A program made the position numbers and the translations under genes. A DNA stretch of 22,596 nucleotides from a virus. Under the pieces are notes generated by a model. That model saw nothing but the letters and a program-made list of their open reading frames with translations, made no database searches and was not told the DNA's origin. Shown here piece after piece: positions 3,340 through 19,910 of this stretch (positions are counted from its first letter, which is position 1; each line of letters opens with the position of its first letter). The stretch lies in IMG/VR virus record IMGVR_UViG_3300027849_000064, positions 1 through 22,596 of that record; one strand, 5' to 3'.

Positions 3340-3876
3340 TTATTTTGAGTCTATTGACATGAATTCGTTATCTCTAATCTCTAAATTGTTATTACCAACT
3401 GATGCCATTGTACCATAGATTGTATCTTTTTTAGAAGCTATTGGAGAATTCATCATTCCAGTCTTATCTATTTTCTTATACAATTTGCTACCGTTAACAT
3501 CATCCATAAATCCAACGTTAATTACTAATTCATATCCAACGAATAATTGGTTAGAATCTTCGCTGTTTAATTTATTAATTTCGTCAATATGAAATCCTTT
3601 ATCTAGATTAGCTGTTACGAATAATACTGAATCCATACTCTTTGCTCCCTTTTCAACAACATCCAAGATAATCTTTTCTCCAGTTGATTTAAAACTTGAC
3701 CATGCTTTATTAACCTCAGCTAAAGTTGCTTTTTGATCTCCTTCATAAGAAACTTTTTCTATAGTTTTCTTAAATGCTTGCATTACCTTTCCTACTAGTC
3801 CTTTAGAACTATAAACTCCAGTCATTCTATATACCTTTTCGTTTACGAATTGTTCGAATAATTGTACGTGTTTCAT
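3340..3876 (-). CDS. Putative capsid-internal protein with N-terminal capsid-targeting-like peptide
   Basis: The 178-residue protein starts MKHVQLFEQFVNEKVYRM. The first 13 residues match the layout of the T4 internal-protein capsid-targeting sequence (MKTYQEFIAE followed by A): Met-Lys, a short polar/aromatic helix with xFxxF, then an aliphatic-x-Glu where the T4 prohead protease cuts. Here the site would be FVNE followed by Lys, which is less usual than Ala or Gly. The rest is a mixed alpha/beta domain that I do not recognise, with VGYELVINVGFMDD in its second half. It is the last of six adjacent genes with such peptides or sites, and the hairpins at 3251-3327 follow it. Packaging is inferred from the peptide and the neighbours. 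Confidence 0.7.
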   Translation of the reverse strand: MKHVQLFEQFVNEKVYRMTGVYSSKGLVGKVMQAFKKTIEKVSYEGDQKATLAEVNKAWSSFKSTGEKIILDVVEKGAKSMDSVLFVTANLDKGFHIDEINKLNSEDSNQLFVGYELVINVGFMDDVNGSKLYKKIDKTGMMNSPIASKKDTIYGTMASVGNNNLEIRDNEFMSIDSK

Positions 3877-3902
3877 GATTTTATTTTAATTTTATTATTT
3901 TA

Positions 3903-5846
3903 TTAATATTCAAAAGGTGGAGTTCCATAATCCTTTCTCTTAACGGCATACCATACTGCTTTATATGTGAAATACCACCAATTGTCTGATTCTATAATAT
4001 AAACTTCTCCTTTAGGTGCTACTCTCTTGTAACCTCCTCTTGTAAAGTTCTTTGTTACTGGAACACCATCATCCCACGTTTTATTAGTTGATTGAGCTTC
4101 CATTCCAGAACCATCAAAGGTTGCTAAGTGAATTTCTGCATTTTTACCTTCAGCTTTTTCATCTGCTGCGAATTGTACAAGACCTGCAGATTTTGTAGCT
4201 GCTTCATTAACTATTGATTCATTGTATAAATGGACATAGTTACTTCCTTTTTCAGAATAAACTGATTTTATTTTAAATTCTTTTTGTGCTTTAGTATAAT
4301 ATGCTTTAAAGAATAAGTTATCTTCTAGATCTCCGAAGAAATGATCTGACTTACCAACATAAAATTTTGCATTTGGATAAAGTTTTGTAACTTCTTCTTT
4401 TGTTTTTGCATCTAGAACTTCTTTGTTGAATTCTTTTACAAATTTAGCTTCAGAAACTAATGATTCATACTTTTCCATATTGATGAAAACATCTGCAATA
4501 TCTTTATTACCTATTGTATTATAAACTGCATTTGGGTGTTTATTACCAATTGCTGCATTAACAACGTCTCCATTATCCTTTACTGTATAACTTCCACCAT
4601 CGTACTTTTCACCATCAATTGAAATTTCAAAACCAGCTCCTTTACCTTTAACATATTCTAAGTCGTGTACCTTTGCTTTAACCATATCAGCTTGAGAAAT
4701 TGCAGATGCTATTAAGTTAGCAGCAGCTTCCACTTCTTTTTTACTAAATTTAAATTTTTCAGTAACTAATGATTCGTATGCAGTACCTTTAACTTCTTCT
4801 GGTTTATTAAACCTTTTAATATTACTTTTACATTTTTTCAATAGATCTATAATACTATTTAATGTTTCGCCTTTACCTGAATCATTACCAGCTTTAAGCC
4901 AATCATAATACTTTGATAATTCTTGACTAGCTTTGTATAATTCATCTTCTATCGTATCCTTAGACATTCTAGAAAATGCTTCATTAACTACAGATTCGCC
5001 AAGTCCTAATAATTCATCGTACATTGAAGCTGCCATTTTCATTGTATCTTTTGTTTTCTTAACATCATCTTTAAATTCCTTAAAGAATTGTTTAATAAAT
5101 GAATTTTGATCTTTTGCATTTTTTGCTAAATCTTTGTATATTCCGAAAACACCTTCATTTGTATTTACAAATTCAGATAAATTTGTTGTTAATTTATTTT
5201 TTGATTCATTAAAAAATGATTCGAAGTTTTGTAATTTTTTCATTTTTTTCTTTTTCTTTTTATATTCCTTTTCAGAGTCTCCGCTACCTGCTGGGATATC
5301 CCCTGATCCAGTTTGAGTTGCCGTTGGTAAGGTAACCTCCCCCATTCCTGTAATAGAACTTGTTGTTATATTTTCGAAAATATCTTTTACTCTATTCTCT
5401 GTTTTTTTCAATTCGTGCTCTAGTTTCATTAAGAATTCTTTTTCATTATTAAATAAACCATACCCTAAATCAAATCCTTGTTCTACGGATAAATCTTTCT
5501 TTTTAAATTTTGATTTATATTTTTTATTAAATAATGAAATGAACGTATCAATCTTATCTTCACGTGGATAAAAATAAATGTGATAACCTGCAGTACGAGC
5601 AGAATCCCAATATATTCCTTGTGAATCTTCGCGTCTAACTAGTGGTAAATCATACTCTATAGTCCATTCGCCATCCTCGGTCGTTTTATCATATATAGTA
5701 TCTTCATTAGGACTACCTCCCTTAGGATCTCCTTTCCAAAACTTAAACCCATATTTTTTTAATAGTGATTCTATTTTGGCATCAATACTCTTTGATTCCT
5801 TTAATTGATTTTCTTCTAGTTCTTTCATATTACCAAGCGTAATCAA
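3903..5846 (-). CDS. Multi-module putative packaged protein with six protease-type linkers and an internal targeting peptide
   Basis: This 647-residue protein looks like two units in one frame. Residues 1-200 are an unrecognised alpha/beta domain ending in a Gly/Pro/Thr-rich tail (GMGEVTLPTATQTGSGDIPA) and a Lys run. At Met202 (5241-5243) the sequence MKKLQNFESFFNES restarts with a capsid-targeting-like peptide, preceded by an A-rich stretch that could bind a ribosome. After it come protease-type sites at about residues 214 (FFNE/S), 231 (NTNE/G), 289 (ESVVNE/A), 363 (ESLVTE/K), 466 (ESLVSE/A) and 548 (ESIVNE/A). They separate small modules of roughly 60-100 residues, the last rich in Trp and Tyr. 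None is a family I can name. The stop lies 26 bases before the 178-residue gene and the start overlaps the upstream gene. The homopolymer at the junction leaves open whether the two parts are really one gene. Confidence 0.75.
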   Translation of the reverse strand: MITLGNMKELEENQLKESKSIDAKIESLLKKYGFKFWKGDPKGGSPNEDTIYDKTTEDGEWTIEYDLPLVRREDSQGIYWDSARTAGYHIYFYPREDKIDTFISLFNKKYKSKFKKKDLSVEQGFDLGYGLFNNEKEFLMKLEHELKKTENRVKDIFENITTSSITGMGEVTLPTATQTGSGDIPAGSGDSEKEYKKKKKKMKKLQNFESFFNESKNKLTTNLSEFVNTNEGVFGIYKDLAKNAKDQNSFIKQFFKEFKDDVKKTKDTMKMAASMYDELLGLGESVVNEAFSRMSKDTIEDELYKASQELSKYYDWLKAGNDSGKGETLNSIIDLLKKCKSNIKRFNKPEEVKGTAYESLVTEKFKFSKKEVEAAANLIASAISQADMVKAKVHDLEYVKGKGAGFEISIDGEKYDGGSYTVKDNGDVVNAAIGNKHPNAVYNTIGNKDIADVFINMEKYESLVSEAKFVKEFNKEVLDAKTKEEVTKLYPNAKFYVGKSDHFFGDLEDNLFFKAYYTKAQKEFKIKSVYSEKGSNYVHLYNESIVNEAATKSAGLVQFAADEKAEGKNAEIHLATFDGSGMEAQSTNKTWDDGVPVTKNFTRGGYKRVAPKGEVYIIESDNWWYFTYKAVWYAVKRKDYGTPPFEY

Positions 5847-7551
5847 ATTTCTTAATCTTAGAAACTTTATCTTTTATTTCTTTAGCATAATTTTTAGCTT
5901 CTTTCTCAGCATAATTAGATGAGTATTTCTCTGCTTTAGCCTCTTCAGATTGTTTAGTATAATCAACGTATCTACTATAATCATCTAATATATGAGACAT
6001 GTGGTTTGATGCGTCTCTCATTTTAGCTTCATTACCCTTAGAATTTCTTCCAATAATAATATCTCCGTATCTTCCTTTTTCACCTTTAGCTAAACCCTCT
6101 TTAATTTGAGCTGATAATGCATCAATAGAATCTGAAACCATTTTATCTAATGGTAATTTAGAAGCTTTAGTTGCTAATATTTCTTGATATCTTGCTTTGT
6201 TTGCTTTTTTGAAGTCTTTATCATTCATAAATGCAGTAGCTCCTGATTTTTGATCTACTCTTGCAGCAATTTCTGATCTAGAAGATTTGGTAAGATTTGA
6301 TAAACTAAATGCTACTGCTCTATCTGCTAAATCAGCCGCTCTTTTAATTGAAGCTATTCCCGTTGCATCGTATCCTTTATATGCTTTGTTACCACCAACT
6401 GCCATTCTATCATCTCCACCTTTTAAAGTTTTGGTGTTCTTCTTTCTTCTATATCCTGTTGATTCATATTGAACTCCTAAGAAATCTTTTCCTCTTGTTA
6501 ATGCTAAAACACCAGGAGCAACTGATCCTGTTCCGAATGGATTTGCTTTGTCATTATCAACTATATAAAATACTACAGTGTCTCTATCGTTAGCATATGC
6601 TTTATAAGCTTCTTTAGGTGTCATGTCGATTAAATCTTCGTCTCCGATTTGATCTAATTTCATTTTAGTTAATTGATAAAATGCTTTAGGTAATGCAGCA
6701 TCTGCTTTATCGCCGTATGTCATTGAATCTGTCATTGTTAATAAGTTTCTTAACTTAGAAGATTTGAATGCTTCGTTAACTACTGATTCTTCGATGTATT
6801 CTGCTAAATCAGCATCATCCCATCCGTCTGGAGATGCTAAAACTTTTTCAAGATCTTCTCTTTTCCCCGTTAGTTCAACTTCTGGAAATCCTGAAGGACC
6901 TTCTTGATCAATAACTTCGATTGATACTTTGTTCTTTTTTAAGAATTTTAAAAAGGCTTTATCATCAGGTTGTGTTGCATCCATAACAACAGTTGCTTCG
7001 TTTGCACTAATAAATTCTTGAAAAGATTCCTTTACTAATTTAGTTTTCATAATTTGCGTGTTTTTGTTCTCTTGTAAATCTAGTGCCCATCCATACTCAA
7101 CGTATTTTATAGCATCTTCAATAAATACTTTATGTTTTTTTGCTAGTTTTTTAACTACATCTAATGTTACTTGACTGTTTGGCAATTTTGAAATTGCTTT
7201 ATCAAATCCACTAGGAACCCATACTTCTGGATTTTCTGTAGTTGCTTCGTTTACTGTAATTCCTTTAAGAATTCTTTTTCCTAAAGTTGATAATGAAATT
7301 CCTTCCTCAGAAACATTAAATAATTTACCATTTCTATTCATCCATCTTTTAGAGTTAGATGAAAGTTCCTTTAAAATTCTATCAAATTCACCAGTTGCTA
7401 CTTTACCATCCTTGATAGCTTCTAACATTTTATTTCTGATCTTAGCTGTCATTCCAACCGTTTTTGCAGGGTGTGATTCAGTATAAGCTCTTTTTGTTAC
7501 TAGCTTTTTCTCGTTCAATTTACCTGGTTGATCGCTATGTTGATTTTCCAT
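5830..7551 (-). CDS. Multi-module putative packaged protein with three protease-type sites and an internal targeting peptide
   Basis: The 573-residue protein carries protease-type sites at residues 102 (TVNE/A), 185 (SANE/A) and 260 (ESVVNE/A). From Met168 (7048-7050) the sequence MKTKLVKESFQEFISANEA looks like a second, internal capsid-targeting peptide ending at a site. Modules are: 1-102, basic and helical; 103-185, containing WVPSGFDKAISKLPN and a helical pair; 186-260, a small alpha/beta domain; and 261-573, a large basic helical domain with KYSSNYAEKEAKNYAKEI near its end. I recognise no enzyme. Start and stop overlap or adjoin neighbouring genes of the same kind. A TATAAATA box, the T4 late promoter sequence, lies 43 bases upstream of the ATG, which fits expression with the head genes. 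Confidence 0.75.
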   Translation of the reverse strand: MENQHSDQPGKLNEKKLVTKRAYTESHPAKTVGMTAKIRNKMLEAIKDGKVATGEFDRILKELSSNSKRWMNRNGKLFNVSEEGISLSTLGKRILKGITVNEATTENPEVWVPSGFDKAISKLPNSQVTLDVVKKLAKKHKVFIEDAIKYVEYGWALDLQENKNTQIMKTKLVKESFQEFISANEATVVMDATQPDDKAFLKFLKKNKVSIEVIDQEGPSGFPEVELTGKREDLEKVLASPDGWDDADLAEYIEESVVNEAFKSSKLRNLLTMTDSMTYGDKADAALPKAFYQLTKMKLDQIGDEDLIDMTPKEAYKAYANDRDTVVFYIVDNDKANPFGTGSVAPGVLALTRGKDFLGVQYESTGYRRKKNTKTLKGGDDRMAVGGNKAYKGYDATGIASIKRAADLADRAVAFSLSNLTKSSRSEIAARVDQKSGATAFMNDKDFKKANKARYQEILATKASKLPLDKMVSDSIDALSAQIKEGLAKGEKGRYGDIIIGRNSKGNEAKMRDASNHMSHILDDYSRYVDYTKQSEEAKAEKYSSNYAEKEAKNYAKEIKDKVSKIKKFDYAW

Positions 7552-7593
7552 TTATTATTACTTTTATTTTATATTATTAGATTATATATCTAT

Positions 7594-7601
7594 TATTTAT
7601 A
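7594..7601 (-). promoter_or_regulatory. T4-type late promoter box (TATAAATA)
   Basis: On the minus strand these eight bases read TATAAATA, the T4 late promoter -10 sequence. The box lies in the 59-base gap in front of the 573-residue packaged protein gene, 43 bases before its ATG, a workable leader length. Late expression is what a head-packaged protein would need. In DNA this rich in A and T the eight bases can also arise by chance, and no second well-placed copy was found in front of the neighbouring genes. Confidence 0.4.
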
Positions 7602-7610
7602 GTACTAAAA

Positions 7611-9494
7611 TTAATTAGTTAATTTATTCATATATTGTTCGAATGTCATGAATGATCCAGTTGTCTCTTTTGATTCTGGAACTAACTCCATAACGTTCTC
7701 TAATTCTGACTTTAAAACACCATACATTTTATGGATTGCCCTAGGAGTCATTTTCTTAAATGTCTTTTCATCACCATCTAATAATGCATTTCTAACTTGA
7801 GTTGCTGAAATATTATCATCTGTTCTTGGAATTTCAAAAAGACCAAAATCAGCTCTAGCATTTAATTGATCTCTATAAGAATCATTGTTTACTTGATATC
7901 CGTAAGATTTCATTCTATCAGATCCTGTTCCCCATAATACTGGTTCATAATTAGGTCTTAGTTCATTAAACATTTTATCTATCGCTGCTGATGGAAGTAC
8001 TATAATATCCTTTAGGAATTTATATTGCTTTTGAACATTTTTAAACATTTCAATTTGTAACTCTTCGCTATAAGGTCTTTTAAATTCTTCACCTTTCTTT
8101 ATCTTTTTTGCTTTAATTAAAAATACAACTACAGGAAATCCATTTTCCTTATGCATTGTTTCTAATACTTTAGCATGGCCAAGAGTAAACGGTTGAAATC
8201 TACCAACAAATATATTGACTGGTTGTTTTCCTTGTTCTCCGTATGTTACTGTTAATGCCTCATTAACACTCATCTTAGTTTTAATTTTATCGTGAAGTAT
8301 AAAGTTACTATAATCGTAAATAGAGTTTTCATCAGTGTTTTCTACGAATACAACTTCATTTATTTTATCTACTACATTATTTAATTGAACTATCATGTCA
8401 TCATTTAAAATGTCAGAGGACTTGCTCTTTTGCTTTCTAAATGTTCCTAGTGTAATTTTGAATAAACTTGATAATACGTCGTTAGATACATGTCTGAGTG
8501 TCTTCTCGTTCTTTATAAAGTTAGTGTTTAGGTTAAATGAGTTTCCTTTAGAGAATTCTGCATTTTCAAAATTAACTCCAATATATCTTGAAGCATTTTT
8601 ACCAATATATTCATTAAATACAACTGACATTAATTCAATATACCTATGATCAGCACTTTCCTCAACTAATTGTATTTTACTAAAGTCATAACTAGTAAAG
8701 TATTCTAATATATCTGCAATTGCTATTTGATACATGTGAGAACTTTCGCGACTTTCATTAATTGATTCTCTTATAAAATCTTCTAATTTAAATGATTTTA
8801 TCTTTTTTCCTTCTGCGAAGTTTAAGATTAAACCGTCAATTTCTTGTTCTAAATCTTCTTGTAATACTGATTTAGTTGAGTTTGGATTAAAAAGTTTGTA
8901 AATTTCTTTTGTAAATGAAGTTTCAGTCTCAGTTACTATATCATAATCAAATGACTGTGAGAATTCTTTATCATTCATTTCTAACAATTTTACTAATTGT
9001 TCTTTCTGCATTGAATCTAAGACACCATAAAAAATAACATCTTGCTTTTGCACTTCTAATACATTTGACCACTTTTCTAAAATAGATGGATCAATTATTG
9101 TTTTCTTAACCTTACCACCTTCAGTCATTTGCTGAATGTTTGTTAAGATTAAATTGCTAGTTGGCGTAGAATCGTATGAATATGAAGATACATTAGTTTC
9201 TGGTAAATATTCAAATCCAAATCTATAATCAGTAGGTAATTGTTCCTTAGAACTTGGACTTAAACTTTGAATGTGTTTAATACCAACTTCATATAAGGAC
9301 ATTATAGTCCTATCAATAATTGTAAGTGGTTTAGAGTTTGAAGACTTATAGAATTCAAACTTTTCATTAGTTCTTCTAACATAAAATGAAGGAGCTGAAA
9401 TCTTTTCAACAACCATCACTTTATTATTTAATAATCTCTGGAACTCGTTTGAGTTAGTTCCTTGAAAATGTTCTCTTAGTTTTGTAAGTGCCAT
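7611..9494 (-). CDS. Ligase-like nucleotidyltransferase fused to an NMN-adenylyltransferase-like domain
   Basis: The 627-residue protein appears to combine two enzymes. The N-terminal part has the order of motifs of the DNA/RNA ligase superfamily: EKISAPSFYV (Lys31, motif I, though KISA replaces the usual KxDG), RFGFEYLPE (91-99, motif III), EIDGLILNF (218-226, motif IV) and SFKLED (Lys236, motif V). The C-terminal part starts VNIFVGRFQPFTLGH (426-440) with the T/HxGH motif and has ISATQVR (562-568), the ISxTxxR motif of NMN adenylyltransferases (NadM/NadR type), which make NAD from NMN and ATP. A prohead-protease-type site, SVNE/A at 412, lies between the two, and a weaker SINE/S lies at 247. 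No N-terminal targeting peptide is evident. Neighbours on both sides carry such peptides. Motif I is unusual, so ligase activity is uncertain; the C-terminal call is firm. Confidence 0.8.
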   Translation of the reverse strand: MALTKLREHFQGTNSNEFQRLLNNKVMVVEKISAPSFYVRRTNEKFEFYKSSNSKPLTIIDRTIMSLYEVGIKHIQSLSPSSKEQLPTDYRFGFEYLPETNVSSYSYDSTPTSNLILTNIQQMTEGGKVKKTIIDPSILEKWSNVLEVQKQDVIFYGVLDSMQKEQLVKLLEMNDKEFSQSFDYDIVTETETSFTKEIYKLFNPNSTKSVLQEDLEQEIDGLILNFAEGKKIKSFKLEDFIRESINESRESSHMYQIAIADILEYFTSYDFSKIQLVEESADHRYIELMSVVFNEYIGKNASRYIGVNFENAEFSKGNSFNLNTNFIKNEKTLRHVSNDVLSSLFKITLGTFRKQKSKSSDILNDDMIVQLNNVVDKINEVVFVENTDENSIYDYSNFILHDKIKTKMSVNEALTVTYGEQGKQPVNIFVGRFQPFTLGHAKVLETMHKENGFPVVVFLIKAKKIKKGEEFKRPYSEELQIEMFKNVQKQYKFLKDIIVLPSAAIDKMFNELRPNYEPVLWGTGSDRMKSYGYQVNNDSYRDQLNARADFGLFEIPRTDDNISATQVRNALLDGDEKTFKKMTPRAIHKMYGVLKSELENVMELVPESKETTGSFMTFEQYMNKLTN

Positions 9495-9509
9495 ATTCTA
9501 TTTTATTGT

Positions 9510-10802
9510 TTATCTTCCTCCGTATTTAATGATTCCCATTAATTGATTAATTGCTGCAAATGTTCCAGTAAGTTTAAAAACTTTACCTTTATATACAAAT
9601 ACAACTCCCTCAGTTGGGATTATAGATTCAATACCTCCGATTCTATCTAATCTGTCTAATTCTGCAATTACTTTATTAACTTGTTCTGCACCTCCACCTT
9701 TTTTAATCTTGTCAGCTTCAGTTCTAATTTGAGTATGTAATCGTTGCATCTCCTTATCAGGATTAGCAGCAACAAAGTTACTTGCATTTTTAAGAATAAC
9801 ACTACCTAATTCTAAGAAAAGGTCTTCGAATGGTCTAATATTTTCCTTTTGTTTCTTTTTAAAATCTTCTTTATCGAATTTCTTAATAACTGATGCTTTA
9901 TCTTTTCCTAGTGTTTTATCTAAAGATCTTAAGTTAAGAGTCTTTTTATCTCCATAAGCCCATCTTAATAATAAACCTTCTTTATGGTCTTGTGTTAGAT
10001 CTGGAAAGTTTGCTTCTATTAATTCTCTCCACCACATCTCGTGATATCTAGAAACTTCATCAGCATCTGTTAAATTATAACGATTCTTTAGATCTTCTAC
10101 CTTTTTTATGAATTTATTCTTATTTGTTTCAAAGTCAATATCTTTACCTAGTTTAATAACTTGAGGTGGAATCACTGTAAATGTTTTTCCAATATTAAGT
10201 TTTAAATCTTTTAGTGCTTTTGCAATACTATTAGCATACTTAGTTTCTTCTCCAATAATATTACCTTCACCATCAGTTACTTTAATTCCGTGGAATTGAA
10301 TAACATCTCTGTCATAATATATAACGTTTGGATTCTTAGAGTAAATAAGCTCCATGTTCATGAAGTTCTTACCATTATCAAATATCTCTAAATCTTTAGA
10401 TGATAATTTATTTAATGAATCTGCTAAATCTTCTGCAGCAAATTGAAAAGTGTCTTGAACTAATTTACTTGGATGTCCATCGAATTTGTCTTTAAATTGA
10501 GATAGAGACATTGGGTTTTTCATATCCCCTTTGTTTCTAGCAAATTTAACTTCACCATCTTGTACTGTTGCAAATACATTTTGACCATCTGTCTTTTCAG
10601 TTGCTTCTTCTTCAAAGTTTAATTCACCCTGTAAACCAGCATGTACTATCTTTTTAAAATCTCCAAATGTTAATGATTGATCATCAAAGGGGTGCTTCAT
10701 GTGACCTGCTGCTCCTCCTTCTAATATTAATTGAGAGTCTTGTACGTTCGTATTAGATCTCTCTATAAGAAACTGTTCGTATGTTAAAATAGGTTTTTTC
10801 AT
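9510..10802 (-). CDS. ATP-dependent ligase-like nucleotidyltransferase with capsid-targeting-like N-terminus
   Basis: I place the start at the ATG at 10800-10802, giving 430 residues; an upstream in-frame ATG adds 14 residues but they would be read through the terminator hairpin. The protein begins MKKPILTYEQFLIERSN, a capsid-targeting-like peptide (site FLIE/R), followed by a second protease-type site, LILE/G at 28. The core shows ligase-superfamily motifs: EKTDGQNVFA (Lys70, KxDG, the lysine that takes AMP), ARNKGD (88-93), MNMELIY (149-155, motif III), TEGVVF (397-402, motif IV) and VFKLTG (408-413, motif V). Between III and IV lies a long insert. Such enzymes seal nicks in DNA or RNA. Whether this one acts on DNA or RNA is not visible. 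Next to it is a second ligase-like gene. The targeting peptide suggests that it travels in the capsid, which is inference. Confidence 0.8.
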   Translation of the reverse strand: MKKPILTYEQFLIERSNTNVQDSQLILEGGAAGHMKHPFDDQSLTFGDFKKIVHAGLQGELNFEEEATEKTDGQNVFATVQDGEVKFARNKGDMKNPMSLSQFKDKFDGHPSKLVQDTFQFAAEDLADSLNKLSSKDLEIFDNGKNFMNMELIYSKNPNVIYYDRDVIQFHGIKVTDGEGNIIGEETKYANSIAKALKDLKLNIGKTFTVIPPQVIKLGKDIDFETNKNKFIKKVEDLKNRYNLTDADEVSRYHEMWWRELIEANFPDLTQDHKEGLLLRWAYGDKKTLNLRSLDKTLGKDKASVIKKFDKEDFKKKQKENIRPFEDLFLELGSVILKNASNFVAANPDKEMQRLHTQIRTEADKIKKGGGAEQVNKVIAELDRLDRIGGIESIIPTEGVVFVYKGKVFKLTGTFAAINQLMGIIKYGGR

Positions 10803-10815
10803 ATATGTAAATATA
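10802..10815 (-). promoter_or_regulatory. Third copy of the TATATTTACATATA core
   Basis: The 14-base core of the elements at 880-901 and 1187-1208 recurs here, again on the minus strand and again just after a hairpin (10826-10849). It abuts the ATG of the ligase-like gene with no spacer, so if it is a promoter the transcript would be nearly leaderless or would start further downstream. Its repeat with the same hairpin-then-core order is the evidence; the function is unsettled. Confidence 0.35.
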
Positions 10816-10825
10816 ATAAAAGGAA

Positions 10826-10849
10826 ATGACCTGGAAAAATCCAAGTCAT
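10826..10849 (-). terminator. Terminator-like hairpin after the polyprotein gene
   Basis: ATGAC pairs with GTCAT and, after one mismatch, TGGA pairs with TCCA, with an AAAA loop. On the minus strand it is followed by TTCCTTTTATT. On the plus strand it is followed by ACTTTTTTTT, a better U tract, although no plus-strand gene is visible. The hairpin begins 16 bases beyond the stop of the 891-residue gene. Its loop and core resemble those of the terminator at 1205-1242. Confidence 0.55.
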
Positions 10850-10864
10850 ACTTTTTTTTGTTTT

Positions 10865-13540
10865 TTATCCTAATGAAGATGTTAAAATACCAACTGCAGC
10901 GCCATAATCTCCGTCGCTTTTAGATAAGATACCATCAATAGCTTCTTTTGCTTTAGCTTCGTCAAAATCTTCTCCGAATGCTTTTTGTAAAACAGTATTT
11001 GCGTATTCAGTAAATTCTTCGTCAGATTTAATTTCTGCTTCAGTAACTACTGATTCTTTAACAACTAATTCTGCATCTATTGCTACTTCATGTGAAATAG
11101 TCTCTAAACCATTAATTAGAATTGTACCATCCTTTTGTATGCCAGTAACTTCACCAGAATCAAAAGGTTTTTTAGAACTTTTACCTAAAACAGAAACTCT
11201 ATCGCCTATTTTAAATTTAGCTTCGTTAACTTCTGATTCTTTAATAAATATTGCTTCATCATCACTATATCCTGGTTCTAATGAAAGTCCATGTTTTTTC
11301 ATTAATGATTTGTATTTATCAACATTATTAATAAACTCAATAGCATCGTCACCCATATCACTTGGTTCTGTGTTTAGAAATCCTGAATAATGATCGTGCT
11401 TTTTATCAAATTGATAGTCGTTAGCGATATTTGCTAGGAATGTATTAACTCCTGATTTACCTTCGTTAACTTCTGATTCATTATAACTTACAATGTCAGA
11501 ATATTTAACTTCGTGTTCTTCACCGTCTTGATCTAATGCAAATATAACTTTGTCATTCCACATTGCAGTGTTTTCGTCATTTCCATTATCTGGGTTGTAT
11601 ATGATAAATTCATCACCATTTGCTAATTGAATAATACCATCATCTTGTTTCATTGCTTTCATTAACTTCTTCTTGTCAAATTTAGCTTCTGTAACTATTG
11701 CTTCTTCAACTTCTTCAGTCTCTTCAACTTCTTCAGTCTCTTCAACTTCTTCAGTCTCTTCAACTTCTTCAGTCTCTTCAACTTCTTCAGTCTCTTCAAC
11801 TTCTTCAGTCTCTTCAACTTCTTCAGTCTCTTCAACTTCTTCAGTCTCTTCAACTTCTTCAGTCTCTTCAACTTCTTCAGTCTCTTCAACTTCTTCAGTC
11901 TCTTCAACCTTGAAAGTTTCTCCTTCAAATTCAAATTCTTTTTCTCCAGCTTCTTTAGCTTTTCTAACTGCATCTCCGAAAGCATTACCTTCTTCAACTT
12001 CTTCTGCTTCAGTAATTACAGATTCAAAGGCTGGAACTAATCCAGAACCTCCGTAAATATCTGCCATCATCCAAGTTTTAGAACCTTCGTCCCATAGGTA
12101 AACATATTCTGCACCGCTCTCATCACTTGCTGTTCTAAGATAATTATCTATTTTTTTAACATTTCCTGTTTCTCCAGTAGTACTATCGTTATAGTAGTTT
12201 ATTGCATCAACATTTTTATCTAATCCTGAGTTGTTTCCTTTAGAAATAACAACATCAACATTTTTACCACCTTTAAATGATTGTTTGATAATTGGTAATA
12301 CGTTTTCTGGATATGAATCGTAATGCATATATACAGAAGTAATATTTCCTTTTTTATCTATTTTACCAAATTGACCTCTTGTTCCTTCGTTTAAAACCGT
12401 TTTAGTTTCTTTTAAAAGAACTGGGTAAGTGCTACCGTCATATTCAAATTCTTCTAAACCTTCATCTTTAGCTTTTCTAGCAGCTGCAACAAATGCCCTT
12501 CCTTCAGAAACTCTAGATTCCATAATTTGAACTGATTCAAATTGTGCATTAAATCCATTAAGTAAATTTTCAGCTGTTTTAGTTTCTTTTAAATAGTCTA
12601 AGAACATTGCTGTTCCTTCAACGATTGTAATTCCACCCCATTCTCCAGCAGTTGCGATTCTAGATGCAAGTTCTGAAATAGCTTCTCTAATTTTAGGCAT
12701 TGGTAGCTTTAATTCTACACCACCTAATTCTGCAACTTTAATAGTTACTGGTTTAATATTACCTTTGATTGTTTTCATGATAGCGTAAGCTTCTCTAGAG
12801 AAGTTTGCATCTTCCATTGCATCAAAGAATAATTGTTTTAATACTCCTAATTTATGTGATTGATCATTAGCTCCAAATGCAGGATATTCGTTCCATATTT
12901 TAACTAATTGATTAAATACTTTCTTAGCTCCTCTTTTACCTGTTACAATAATAGCTTCGTTAAGTTCATGTTGAACATTTTCTTTAATACCAAATTCTTT
13001 AGCTAACAGAGTTTGTACGTCTCCGACGTTTGCACCAGAGATTTCCATACCTTCAGTATCTATTGCAGCAAAATCTTCAGGTTGGGCATATACGAATTGA
13101 AACAATAAATCTTCAACATCATTAATGTCTTTCTTGTTCTTTTTGTAAACATCTTTTAATTCTTTCATAGTAACTGAAAGACCTAAAGCACCGTGCTCTT
13201 CAGAATCAATATCTAATTGAAATAATTCTTTAGCTTCAGTTATTAATGATTCATCAACTTCTTCATCAGATTCTTCATCTTCAATTTCATCAGATACTTC
13301 AATTTCGATTTCAACTTCTTCTTCAGAAACGTTTCCAAATGCTTTAGTTATAAATTCTCTTTTAGTATCTTCTGCTAAATCTTCAAATGAATTGATTTCC
13401 ATTTCATCAAGCAATGTTGATATTTTTGTAGCTAAATCAGAACGCTTTGTAGCATTCTCTTCAGCCAATTGTGTAGCAACTTGAGTTGCTTTGATTTCCG
13501 AAAAAGTCTTAAAGGACGTTATTCTATTAATTTCTGCCAT
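10865..13540 (-). CDS. 891-residue putative capsid-internal polyprotein with about ten protease-type sites
   Basis: The protein looks like a string of small domains separated by prohead-protease-type sites at residues 102 (SLITE/A), 195 (ELNE/A), 346 (SRVSE/G), 385 (TVLNE/G), 511 (SVITE/A), 517 (EVEE/G), 618 (AIVTE/A), 693 (SEVNE/G), 773 (SEVNE/A) and 834 (SVVTE/A). The N-terminus (SFKTFSEIKA, then QLAE) may act in capsid targeting, followed by a strongly acidic stretch at 73-97. Modules 347-373 and 518-544 repeat each other: xAFxxAxRKAKxxGxxEFEYxG. Residues 546-611 are eleven EETEEV repeats. Residues 775-808 look like a small SH3/KOW-type barrel (FKIGDRVSVLGK...GEVTGI). The last 57 residues form a helical module ending GDYGAAVGILTSSLG. 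No catalytic motif is seen. The gene lies just after uvsW. Cutting at all sites would give fragments of roughly 40-150 residues. Confidence 0.8.
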   Translation of the reverse strand: MAEINRITSFKTFSEIKATQVATQLAEENATKRSDLATKISTLLDEMEINSFEDLAEDTKREFITKAFGNVSEEEVEIEIEVSDEIEDEESDEEVDESLITEAKELFQLDIDSEEHGALGLSVTMKELKDVYKKNKKDINDVEDLLFQFVYAQPEDFAAIDTEGMEISGANVGDVQTLLAKEFGIKENVQHELNEAIIVTGKRGAKKVFNQLVKIWNEYPAFGANDQSHKLGVLKQLFFDAMEDANFSREAYAIMKTIKGNIKPVTIKVAELGGVELKLPMPKIREAISELASRIATAGEWGGITIVEGTAMFLDYLKETKTAENLLNGFNAQFESVQIMESRVSEGRAFVAAARKAKDEGLEEFEYDGSTYPVLLKETKTVLNEGTRGQFGKIDKKGNITSVYMHYDSYPENVLPIIKQSFKGGKNVDVVISKGNNSGLDKNVDAINYYNDSTTGETGNVKKIDNYLRTASDESGAEYVYLWDEGSKTWMMADIYGGSGLVPAFESVITEAEEVEEGNAFGDAVRKAKEAGEKEFEFEGETFKVEETEEVEETEEVEETEEVEETEEVEETEEVEETEEVEETEEVEETEEVEETEEVEETEEVEETEEVEEAIVTEAKFDKKKLMKAMKQDDGIIQLANGDEFIIYNPDNGNDENTAMWNDKVIFALDQDGEEHEVKYSDIVSYNESEVNEGKSGVNTFLANIANDYQFDKKHDHYSGFLNTEPSDMGDDAIEFINNVDKYKSLMKKHGLSLEPGYSDDEAIFIKESEVNEAKFKIGDRVSVLGKSSKKPFDSGEVTGIQKDGTILINGLETISHEVAIDAELVVKESVVTEAEIKSDEEFTEYANTVLQKAFGEDFDEAKAKEAIDGILSKSDGDYGAAVGILTSSLG
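11708..11905 (-). repeat. Perfect tandem repeat, 11 x 18 bp, encoding EETEEV
   Basis: Eleven copies of an 18-bp unit follow one another with no visible base change, plus a partial copy at 11702-11707. In the polyprotein frame each unit encodes Glu-Glu-Thr-Glu-Glu-Val, making a 66-residue acidic linker. The perfect identity, including silent positions, points to recent expansion by slippage or unequal recombination. Copy number is likely to vary between isolates. The long open frames on the other strand and in another frame here are products of the repeat. Confidence 0.95.
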
Positions 13541-18975: not shown

Positions 18976-19344
18976 TTATATAGATTTACCGATTGCAGCA
19001 CCTAAAGCGGCTCCGACTAATCGTGAAGTTAACATGTTATAAAATACTCCTTTTTCAATACCTAATACTTTAGCAATTGTTTTACCGATTGTTTTACCTA
19101 AAGCAAAACCTGTTAAACCACCAAATATAGATCCGAATAAACCTTCATTAGTTATCTCTCCATCAAATCTATCCATATCAAACGTACCATCTTCGTTCCT
19201 GTATTCAGAAACAAATTCTTCTAAAGCAGTGTCTACCTTTTCTTCTAGTTCAACGGTCCATTCAGTCTGTAATGACTCTTGTAATATTGTAAGTTCTTGG
19301 TCAGTTGCATTTGCTTCTGACATGTAGTCTAAAAATGTTTTCAT
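18976..19344 (-). CDS. Putative packaged pro-protein with glycine-zipper, fusion-peptide-like C-terminus
   Basis: The 122-residue protein begins MKTFLDYMSEANATDQ, a close match in layout to the T4 internal-protein targeting peptide MKTYQEFIAEA, with a protease-type site MSE/A at 10. Residues 12-64 are acidic and helical. A second candidate site, ITNE/G at 67, would release a 55-residue C-terminal piece that starts GLFGSIFGGLTGFALGKTIG and ends LVGAALGAAIGKSI. This piece is hydrophobic, basic and rich in GxxxG-type spacing, so it probably inserts into membranes or self-associates. Its new N-terminus resembles viral fusion peptides (influenza HA2: GLFGAIAGFI). It lies between the tail-tube-like gene and the resolvase. 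Packaging, cutting and membrane action are inferred; the site with Thr at P3 is less canonical. Confidence 0.75.
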   Translation of the reverse strand: MKTFLDYMSEANATDQELTILQESLQTEWTVELEEKVDTALEEFVSEYRNEDGTFDMDRFDGEITNEGLFGSIFGGLTGFALGKTIGKTIAKVLGIEKGVFYNMLTSRLVGAALGAAIGKSI

Positions 19345-19358
19345 ATAATTATATATCT

Positions 19359-19910
19359 TTAATCTATTTCTAACTTTAAGTTAAATTTATTATAATAGAA
19401 GTTAAGTGTGAATGTATTAAATTCTGCAATGTTTGAACTCATGTTTAATTCAAGTTCAGTTATTGAATTCATAATTGGCTTTTCAAAAACAGCACTCATT
19501 ACATGGATCCCTTCAGCATCTAATATCTGTAATTTTAAATCATCTAAGAAAGGTTTTCTAATATCCTTTGAATAATAATATAATAAAGTGTCTTGCATTA
19601 TCCAATAGTTAATAAAACCATCTAACAATTGCATTTCTATTGTGAATTGTCTTTCAATAGTATTTTGGATTGGCACCGAACCTCTGTGATACGTTATAGT
19701 TCCATCATTAGGTGCTTGTTCAATAGGATCAAACGATAATCCTGGAAGTGCAACACCTTGTATAGAATAATTAATAAAGTCAATAGGCTCAGTTATTAAA
19801 TTACCGGGCATTCTATTTAAATACTTTCTATATTTGTCAGCAACTTCCTTAGGAACAAACGTTCTAGGAAACTTAAAGTTAAATAAATTATTTCTACTGT
19901 TTAATATCAT
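19359..19910 (-). CDS. Tail-tube-fold virion protein (T4 gp19-like)
   Basis: The 183-residue protein has the pattern of T4 gp19 and related tube proteins. After an N-terminal arm comes a strand with INYSIQGVALPGLSFDPIEQ (compare the T4 segment FQCKATALPAGIVEKIP). Then a beta-hairpin region leads to ERQFTIEMQLLDGFINYW. Near the end, SITELELN followed by FNTFTLNFYYN parallels the T4 end VGELQLDWDSNNEIQTFEVTL. Such proteins stack as hexameric rings to form the inner tube of contractile tails. It could instead be a related baseplate/tube initiator (gp54/gp48 type). Its start overlaps the stop of the 685-residue gene by one base (TAATG), so the two virion genes are coupled. Confidence 0.65.
   Translation of the reverse strand: MILNSRNNLFNFKFPRTFVPKEVADKYRKYLNRMPGNLITEPIDFINYSIQGVALPGLSFDPIEQAPNDGTITYHRGSVPIQNTIERQFTIEMQLLDGFINYWIMQDTLLYYYSKDIRKPFLDDLKLQILDAEGIHVMSAVFEKPIMNSITELELNMSSNIAEFNTFTLNFYYNKFNLKLEID

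Follow-up and report, generated by a model that had tools for sequence, protein, structure and literature searches.

What does the small gene that follows the tail-tube gene of this virus encode, and at which step of the phage life cycle would its product act? The window, that is, the whole 22,596-nucleotide stretch analyzed, is a 22.6-kb virus fragment, and an open reading frame of 122 aa occupies positions 18976-19344 on its minus strand. The gene sits between the tail-tube gene directly upstream (19359-19910, minus strand; PHROG 45, E = 8.5e-7) and a RuvC-like gene, beyond which a gp32-type single-strand binding protein and a primase are encoded. A weak UvsY-like match and a helicase with annotated phage DNA helicases among its matches were also present in the neighborhood. 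Pfam, PHROG and NCBIfam gave no assignment for the product, only sub-threshold zipper or chance matches. A sequence-only reading of this DNA had proposed a precursor that enters the head, is cut by a protease and releases a membrane-active fragment resembling the influenza HA2 fusion peptide.

The precursor starts with MKTFLDYMSEA, which has the T4-type capsid-targeting form. In the T4 record, IPIII and IPII start with MKTYQEFIAEA and IPI starts with MKTFKEFT. In T4 IPIII, packaging is governed by residues 4 and 7 and processing by residues 8 and 10 (PMC9026906). The window protein has F4, Y7, M8 and E10 at these positions, so the aromatic residues at 4 and 7, the hydrophobic residue at 8 and the Glu at 10 are all present. 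The T4-like targeting peptide claimed by the sequence-only reading (MKTFLDYMSE, residues 1-10; 19315-19344, minus strand) was thus borne out. E10 is lost in some close homologues, and Lak members have no MKTF-type start. In G001, a 236-kb relative, the targeting pattern gave 30 matches versus 0 in the reversed sequence, and about 25 of them were at gene starts. This indicates that the pattern is a genome-wide tag and not a chance likeness. About 25 other G001 proteins open with near-identical peptides, such as MKHIKLFEQFVNEA, and the shared tag ends with [VIL]xE. By analogy with T4, the peptide would package proteins into the head, which supports the proposed entry of the precursor.

The G001 (L072-L083) proteins carrying the N-terminal peptide MKxxKLFEQF[VIL]NE, about 25 in number, are otherwise different and occur in clusters, for example at 24.5-25.2, 35.6-47.4, 98.5-99.5, 122-123.4, 147.5-151.5 and 205-207 kb. 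This set probably represents the cargo that is packaged in the head and injected, and the peptide lists probable head-packaged proteins of these phages straight from sequence. A search of one literature library with the MKHIKLFE motif returned nothing relevant. In L178, a series of targeting-like gene starts (MKSLSSYLTEAK, MKSLKYYLVEKE, MQNLNSYLNEER and others) was observed at 8321-11438, right after the glycine-zipper gene.

The targeting peptide is the beginning of an acidic propeptide (residues 1-67; 19144-19344, minus strand) with a median net charge of -14 in the family and a variable sequence with indels. It ends at the putative prohead-protease junction E67/G68 (19141-19146, minus strand), where the codon of E67 is 19144-19146 and that of G68 is 19141-19143. 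The range 18976-19143 corresponds exactly to residues 68-122 and the stop codon. E67 and G68 were 100% conserved (76/76 distinct intact-junction sequences), while columns 64 and 69 were 42% and 34% conserved, respectively. The protease-type cut site that had been placed right before the tail is therefore an invariant position, and its location exactly at the tail start supports the release of a piece of about 55 residues. Homologues without both the site and the hydrophobic tail were looked for and did not occur. L178 carries the same tail behind an unrelated N-terminal part of about 150 aa, and the joint is again ELNE/G. The N-terminal part of the Lak proteins is short, and the joint is IVDE/G. 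These alignments point to the site plus the tail as the conserved unit, with a replaceable N-terminal part.

The junction is mostly T/V/I/L-N-E/G among the homologues. The P1 Glu is invariant. At P3, 61 of the 76 sequences have T, 11 have V and the others have L or I. V, I or L is found at P3 in the distant clades (IVNE/G, EINE/G, ELNE/G and IVDE/G) and T in the clade of the window. Because P3 of the window junction ITNE67/G68 is Thr, not Ile, ITNE is not a literal match to the T4 I/L-x-E site. A trained site matrix was built from 24 inferred targeting-peptide sites of G001, and its profile had L/V/I at P3, mostly N at P2 and mostly S/A/K/G at P1'. With this matrix, most of the junctions of distant homologues were at the 96th-99th percentile and one, IIEE/G, was at the 95th, while the window junction was at the 92nd percentile only, owing to its P3 Thr. 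TNE[AG] occurs in three other G001 targeting-peptide proteins (SVTNEA, SVTNEA and SLTNEA) and in 0 of the remaining 66,895 aa of the G001 proteome (P = 0.0005). The longer form [VIL]TNE/[AG] is seen again in other head-targeted proteins of this genome. The pattern [VIL][NT]E[AGS] was enriched 6-fold in the G001 targeting-peptide proteins (P = 1e-9) and its D-for-E control was not, although the pattern used to choose the set itself ends in E, which accounts for part of this enrichment. All these site statistics describe one 236-kb genome.

E23 (ILQE/S; 19276-19278, minus strand) is a second conserved candidate cut site. It stands in an L-x-E/S setting in which L21 and E23 are 96% and 97% conserved, reads LNE/S in many homologues, and was the best-scoring or a near-best site with the trained matrix. 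A putative second cut at E23 would be in line with the propeptides of SPN3US, which are cut at multiple sites (PMC5694885, PMC10052503). Neither a protease gene nor a capsid gene was found in the 22.6-kb window, a fragment too short to include the S77 protease. Peptidase_S77 was above the curated Pfam cut-off in G001, LR756500, Lak-C1 and Lak-B5, all of which have a Gp23-type major capsid protein, and it was also present in 9 of 15 further long contigs. The cut position of the major capsid protein was not located, since its alignment with T4 gp23 was too loose. Given the targeting peptide, the invariant E67/G68, the S77 protease of the relatives and the confinement of TNE[AG], we consider head targeting and cleavage of the precursor well supported and highly probable.

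The S77 protease ORFs of G001 (5510-7432, minus strand) and L063 (12389-14143) are 584-640 aa long, against about 210 aa in T4, and have a long helical or acidic C-terminal part. They are possibly protease-scaffold fusions.

One IMG/VR scan gave 60 relatives of the precursor, and an alignment-based IMG/VR scan gave at least 537. Beyond IMG/VR, LR756500 (462 kb) matches the protein over its whole length, and the Lak megaphages of Prevotella also carry relatives, of which only the tail was matched in the first search. The gene thus occurs from environmental phage contigs of 170-236 kb to Lak megaphages of 540 kb. The order of tail tube followed by glycine-zipper gene was kept in 133 of the 135 loci with enough upstream sequence. 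In an unbiased sample of 90 loci chosen by the tail-tube gene alone, 89 carried the gene, and the contig of the 90th (L281) ends at its first codons. This shows that the gene is a core gene of this large-phage group. The conservation of the mature part was 72.7% versus 83.6% for the tail tube and 64-75% for primase, SSB and RuvC-like protein, and the mean column conservation was 0.83 in the tail versus 0.67 in the propeptide. No homologue was found in T4, nor in Tenacibaculum phage pT24 and four phages of 634-735 kb, which have the tail tube in common. Among the Lak phages, the gene maps about 4 kb upstream of the protease, and its neighbors were found to include no tail tube of the window type. 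The hosts are probably Bacteroidota, judging solely from relatives (Prevotella for Lak and Tenacibaculum for a tail-tube relative). The sole match of a genome-contig scan, L180 (Clostridia MAG), consists of low-complexity GKTL repeats, did not match in full and was rejected as chance.

The predicted mature piece of 55 residues (18979-19143, minus strand; net charge +5) reads GLFGSIFGGLTGFALGKTIG... in the window. It contains 7 GxxxG pairs (P = 0.0007 by shuffling), so the glycine zipper assigned to this fragment was confirmed, and the small-residue helix described at its end is present as LVGAALGAAIG. In G001, the homologue of the tail ranked at the top of 293 ORFs for GxxxG, and the next best had 4. 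AlphaFold2 predicted two helices for the mature piece alone (its residues 2-27 and 33-54; pLDDT 80) and shorter broken helices for the full-length precursor (pLDDT 72). Helix 1 (residues 69-94; 19063-19140, minus strand) has Gly at every fourth residue (71-75-79-83-87) and a Lys stripe at 84/88/92, and the run of five glycines is kept in 74 of 76 homologues. Helix 2 (residues 100-121; 18982-19047, minus strand) has Gly at 111-115-119 and a near-invariant LTSRLV motif. Every-fourth Gly spacing favors close helix packing and is common in membrane helices. The mature piece is thus predicted to be a two-helix hairpin capable of tight packing through its glycine zipper.

The best 19-residue hydropathy (KD19) was 1.15-1.54 across all 76 mature pieces, under the transmembrane rule of thumb of 1.6. 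Two hydrophobic spans above the usual cut-off, as in a channel- or holin-like two-span hairpin, were absent in all 76. At its center, helix 2 also carries a conserved Arg, replaced by Lys in one Lak form, and in Lak it contains Glu. Membrane insertion is possible, and hydropathy does not indicate it. The piece is basic, with a median net charge of +5, and a DNA-binding role was considered weak since the charge is only +1 in Lak. A PDB fold search with the full-length and mature models gave no significant match, and a search of one literature library on glycine-zipper ejection proteins gave nothing relevant.

Compared with known systems, the precursor looks like an internal head protein processed in the T4 manner, except that its mature product is unusual. 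Like IPI, IPII and IPIII of T4, it is small, carries an N-terminal MKT[FY]xx[FY] tag and has a site after Glu, and its relatives, like T4, have a gp21-type S77 protease and a Gp23-type capsid. Unlike them, it has a propeptide of 67 residues rather than 10-19, its mature piece is a predicted glycine-zipper hairpin, and its gene is a conserved core gene, whereas the T4 genes are variable. The processed ejection proteins of SPN3US/phiKZ, such as gp47, have a long N-terminal propeptide cut after A-x-E or S-x-E, and SPN3US gp47 carries a predicted transmembrane helix (PMC5694885). The present precursor shares the long propeptide before a prohead-protease-type site, at which a cut is predicted, but its mature product is only 55 aa and its targeting peptide is T4-like; no sequence relation between them was seen. 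The glycine-zipper families PF13488, PF13441 and PF05433 share the GxxxG repeats, but all matches covered short stretches only and were below the curated cut-offs (Gly-zipper_Omp, 18.4/25 bits, the best score of the window protein; YMGG, 17.2/28.9 bits; Rick_17kDa, 13.1/24.2 bits). The ejection proteins gp14-16 of T7 and gp7/16/20 of P22 may be alike in role, as head proteins leaving with the DNA, but no sequence or fold match to them was seen.

Inner-membrane passage of the DNA of contractile-tailed phages is still poorly understood. Here, the sequence of a small core gene with no assignment in Pfam, PHROG or NCBIfam suggests that its product is targeted to the head, cut during maturation and folded as a tightly packing helical hairpin. 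We believe that the best explanation as a whole, at about an even chance, is a head-targeted, cleaved precursor whose mature piece acts in DNA entry. The N-terminal peptide and the acidic propeptide would bring the precursor into the prohead core, as their likeness to the T4 internal proteins suggests. Conservation and site statistics suggest that the S77 prohead protease would then cut after E23 and at E67/G68, leaving the basic hairpin of 55 residues, whose two helices are predicted to be able to pack tightly through the zipper. The mature piece would stay in the head and most likely leave with the DNA. In the least supported step, the zipper helices would assemble at or in the inner membrane and aid DNA entry. 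T4 internal proteins such as IPI are known to be ejected; for this reason, and because a zipper is unusual for a soluble peptide, ejection with action at the inner membrane was favored. Taken alone, a membrane or DNA-entry role of the mature piece is a tentative proposal that we regard as rather doubtful. Oligomerization of the released hairpin into an inner-membrane DNA pore switched on by head maturation is unlikely; if true, this pore would be a built-in, proteolytically activated DNA-entry channel of T4-type large phages.

Several other explanations share part of this evidence. The resemblance to HA2 came from the first four residues and the Gly/Phe content of the window sequence alone. 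Only 6 of the 76 distinct homologues begin their tail with exact GLFG, the usual starts being GIL, GML, GVL and GFL, so that of the proposed site before GLFG the site stood (76/76) and GLFG did not. Tail positions 2 and 3 are occupied by various hydrophobic residues, hydropathy is sub-transmembrane, Lak has Glu in helix 2, and no PDB fold match and no Pfam or NCBIfam match of such a kind was found. A fusion peptide of the HA2 type is extremely unlikely, and the likeness is an accident of the window sequence. It is also quite improbable that E67 is left uncut and that the invariant Glu-Gly just opens helix 1 of a stable protein with two domains. The non-canonical P3 Thr of the window clade and a structural use of E-G at a helix start would agree with this, but the flanking positions vary freely, the N-terminal part is replaceable (L178), and distant relatives show consensus-grade sites at the same position. 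An early-acting membrane cargo, such as a superinfection exclusion or other host-takeover factor delivered like the T4 internal proteins, is very unlikely. The same genomes hold many other targeting-peptide proteins resembling variable cargo, but the glycine-zipper gene is in nearly every sampled locus and the other targeting-peptide genes appear less conserved (versus G001, 40-51% for two and 61-70% for others).

There is a modest chance that the mature piece is kept in the virion as a structural component, for example a ring- or plug-shaped oligomer at the portal, the neck or the tail-tube end, and becomes active by removal of the propeptide. The position directly after the tail-tube gene almost everywhere and the core-gene-like conservation agree with this, and the near-invariant LTSRLV and glycines suggest fixed partners; LTSRLV in particular is more suggestive of binding to a specific protein than of a generic membrane peptide. 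However, gene order alone is weak evidence, and the Lak gene, about 4 kb from the protease, was found without such a tail tube beside it. A serious rival, with a small chance of being right, is a prohead membrane tether, in which the tail is at the inner membrane during head assembly, the N-terminal part binds the core, and cleavage at E67/G68 frees the matured prohead. In T4, prohead assembly starts on the inner membrane, and the particles come free once the maturation cleavages have taken place (PMC9958956); the same course has been proposed for SPN3US (PMC10052503). In every homologue, the site also marks the exact boundary of the zipper tail with the core-binding-like part. Against such a tether, the hydropathy of the tail is sub-transmembrane, and the tail would have to reach the membrane from within the core, for example through the portal. 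To our knowledge, no such tether is known in T4.

Other candidate processed head proteins were also observed. The Lak protein at 6473-7723 (minus strand) of L063 is divergent from the glycine-zipper gene and has ALNE/LFGFG near its N-terminus and a hydrophobic stretch; it is possibly a second processed head protein. The ORFs at 3340-13540 (minus strand) of the window are rich in repeated ES[VI][VI][NT]EA-type motifs, with 21 [VILT][NTS]E[AGSK] sites, and none of these sites was found in the tested replication or tail genes of the window, the glycine-zipper gene excepted. These ORFs may encode long internal head proteins that are cut into several pieces. The sequence GMGEV[ST]LP...GSGD[IV]P[AV]G is common to the ORFs at 3903-5846 (minus strand) of the window and at 7665-8315 of L178, otherwise different head-type proteins. 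A DNA tandem repeat at 11695-11997 (minus strand) reads (VEETEE)n in the frame of an 891-aa ORF. The 627-aa ORF at 7611-9494 (minus strand) combines a nicotinamide-nucleotide adenylyltransferase-like domain (residues 428-569) with a C-terminal peptide, FMTFEQYMNK, that resembles a targeting peptide; its product may be a head-packaged enzyme acting on nucleotides or NAD.
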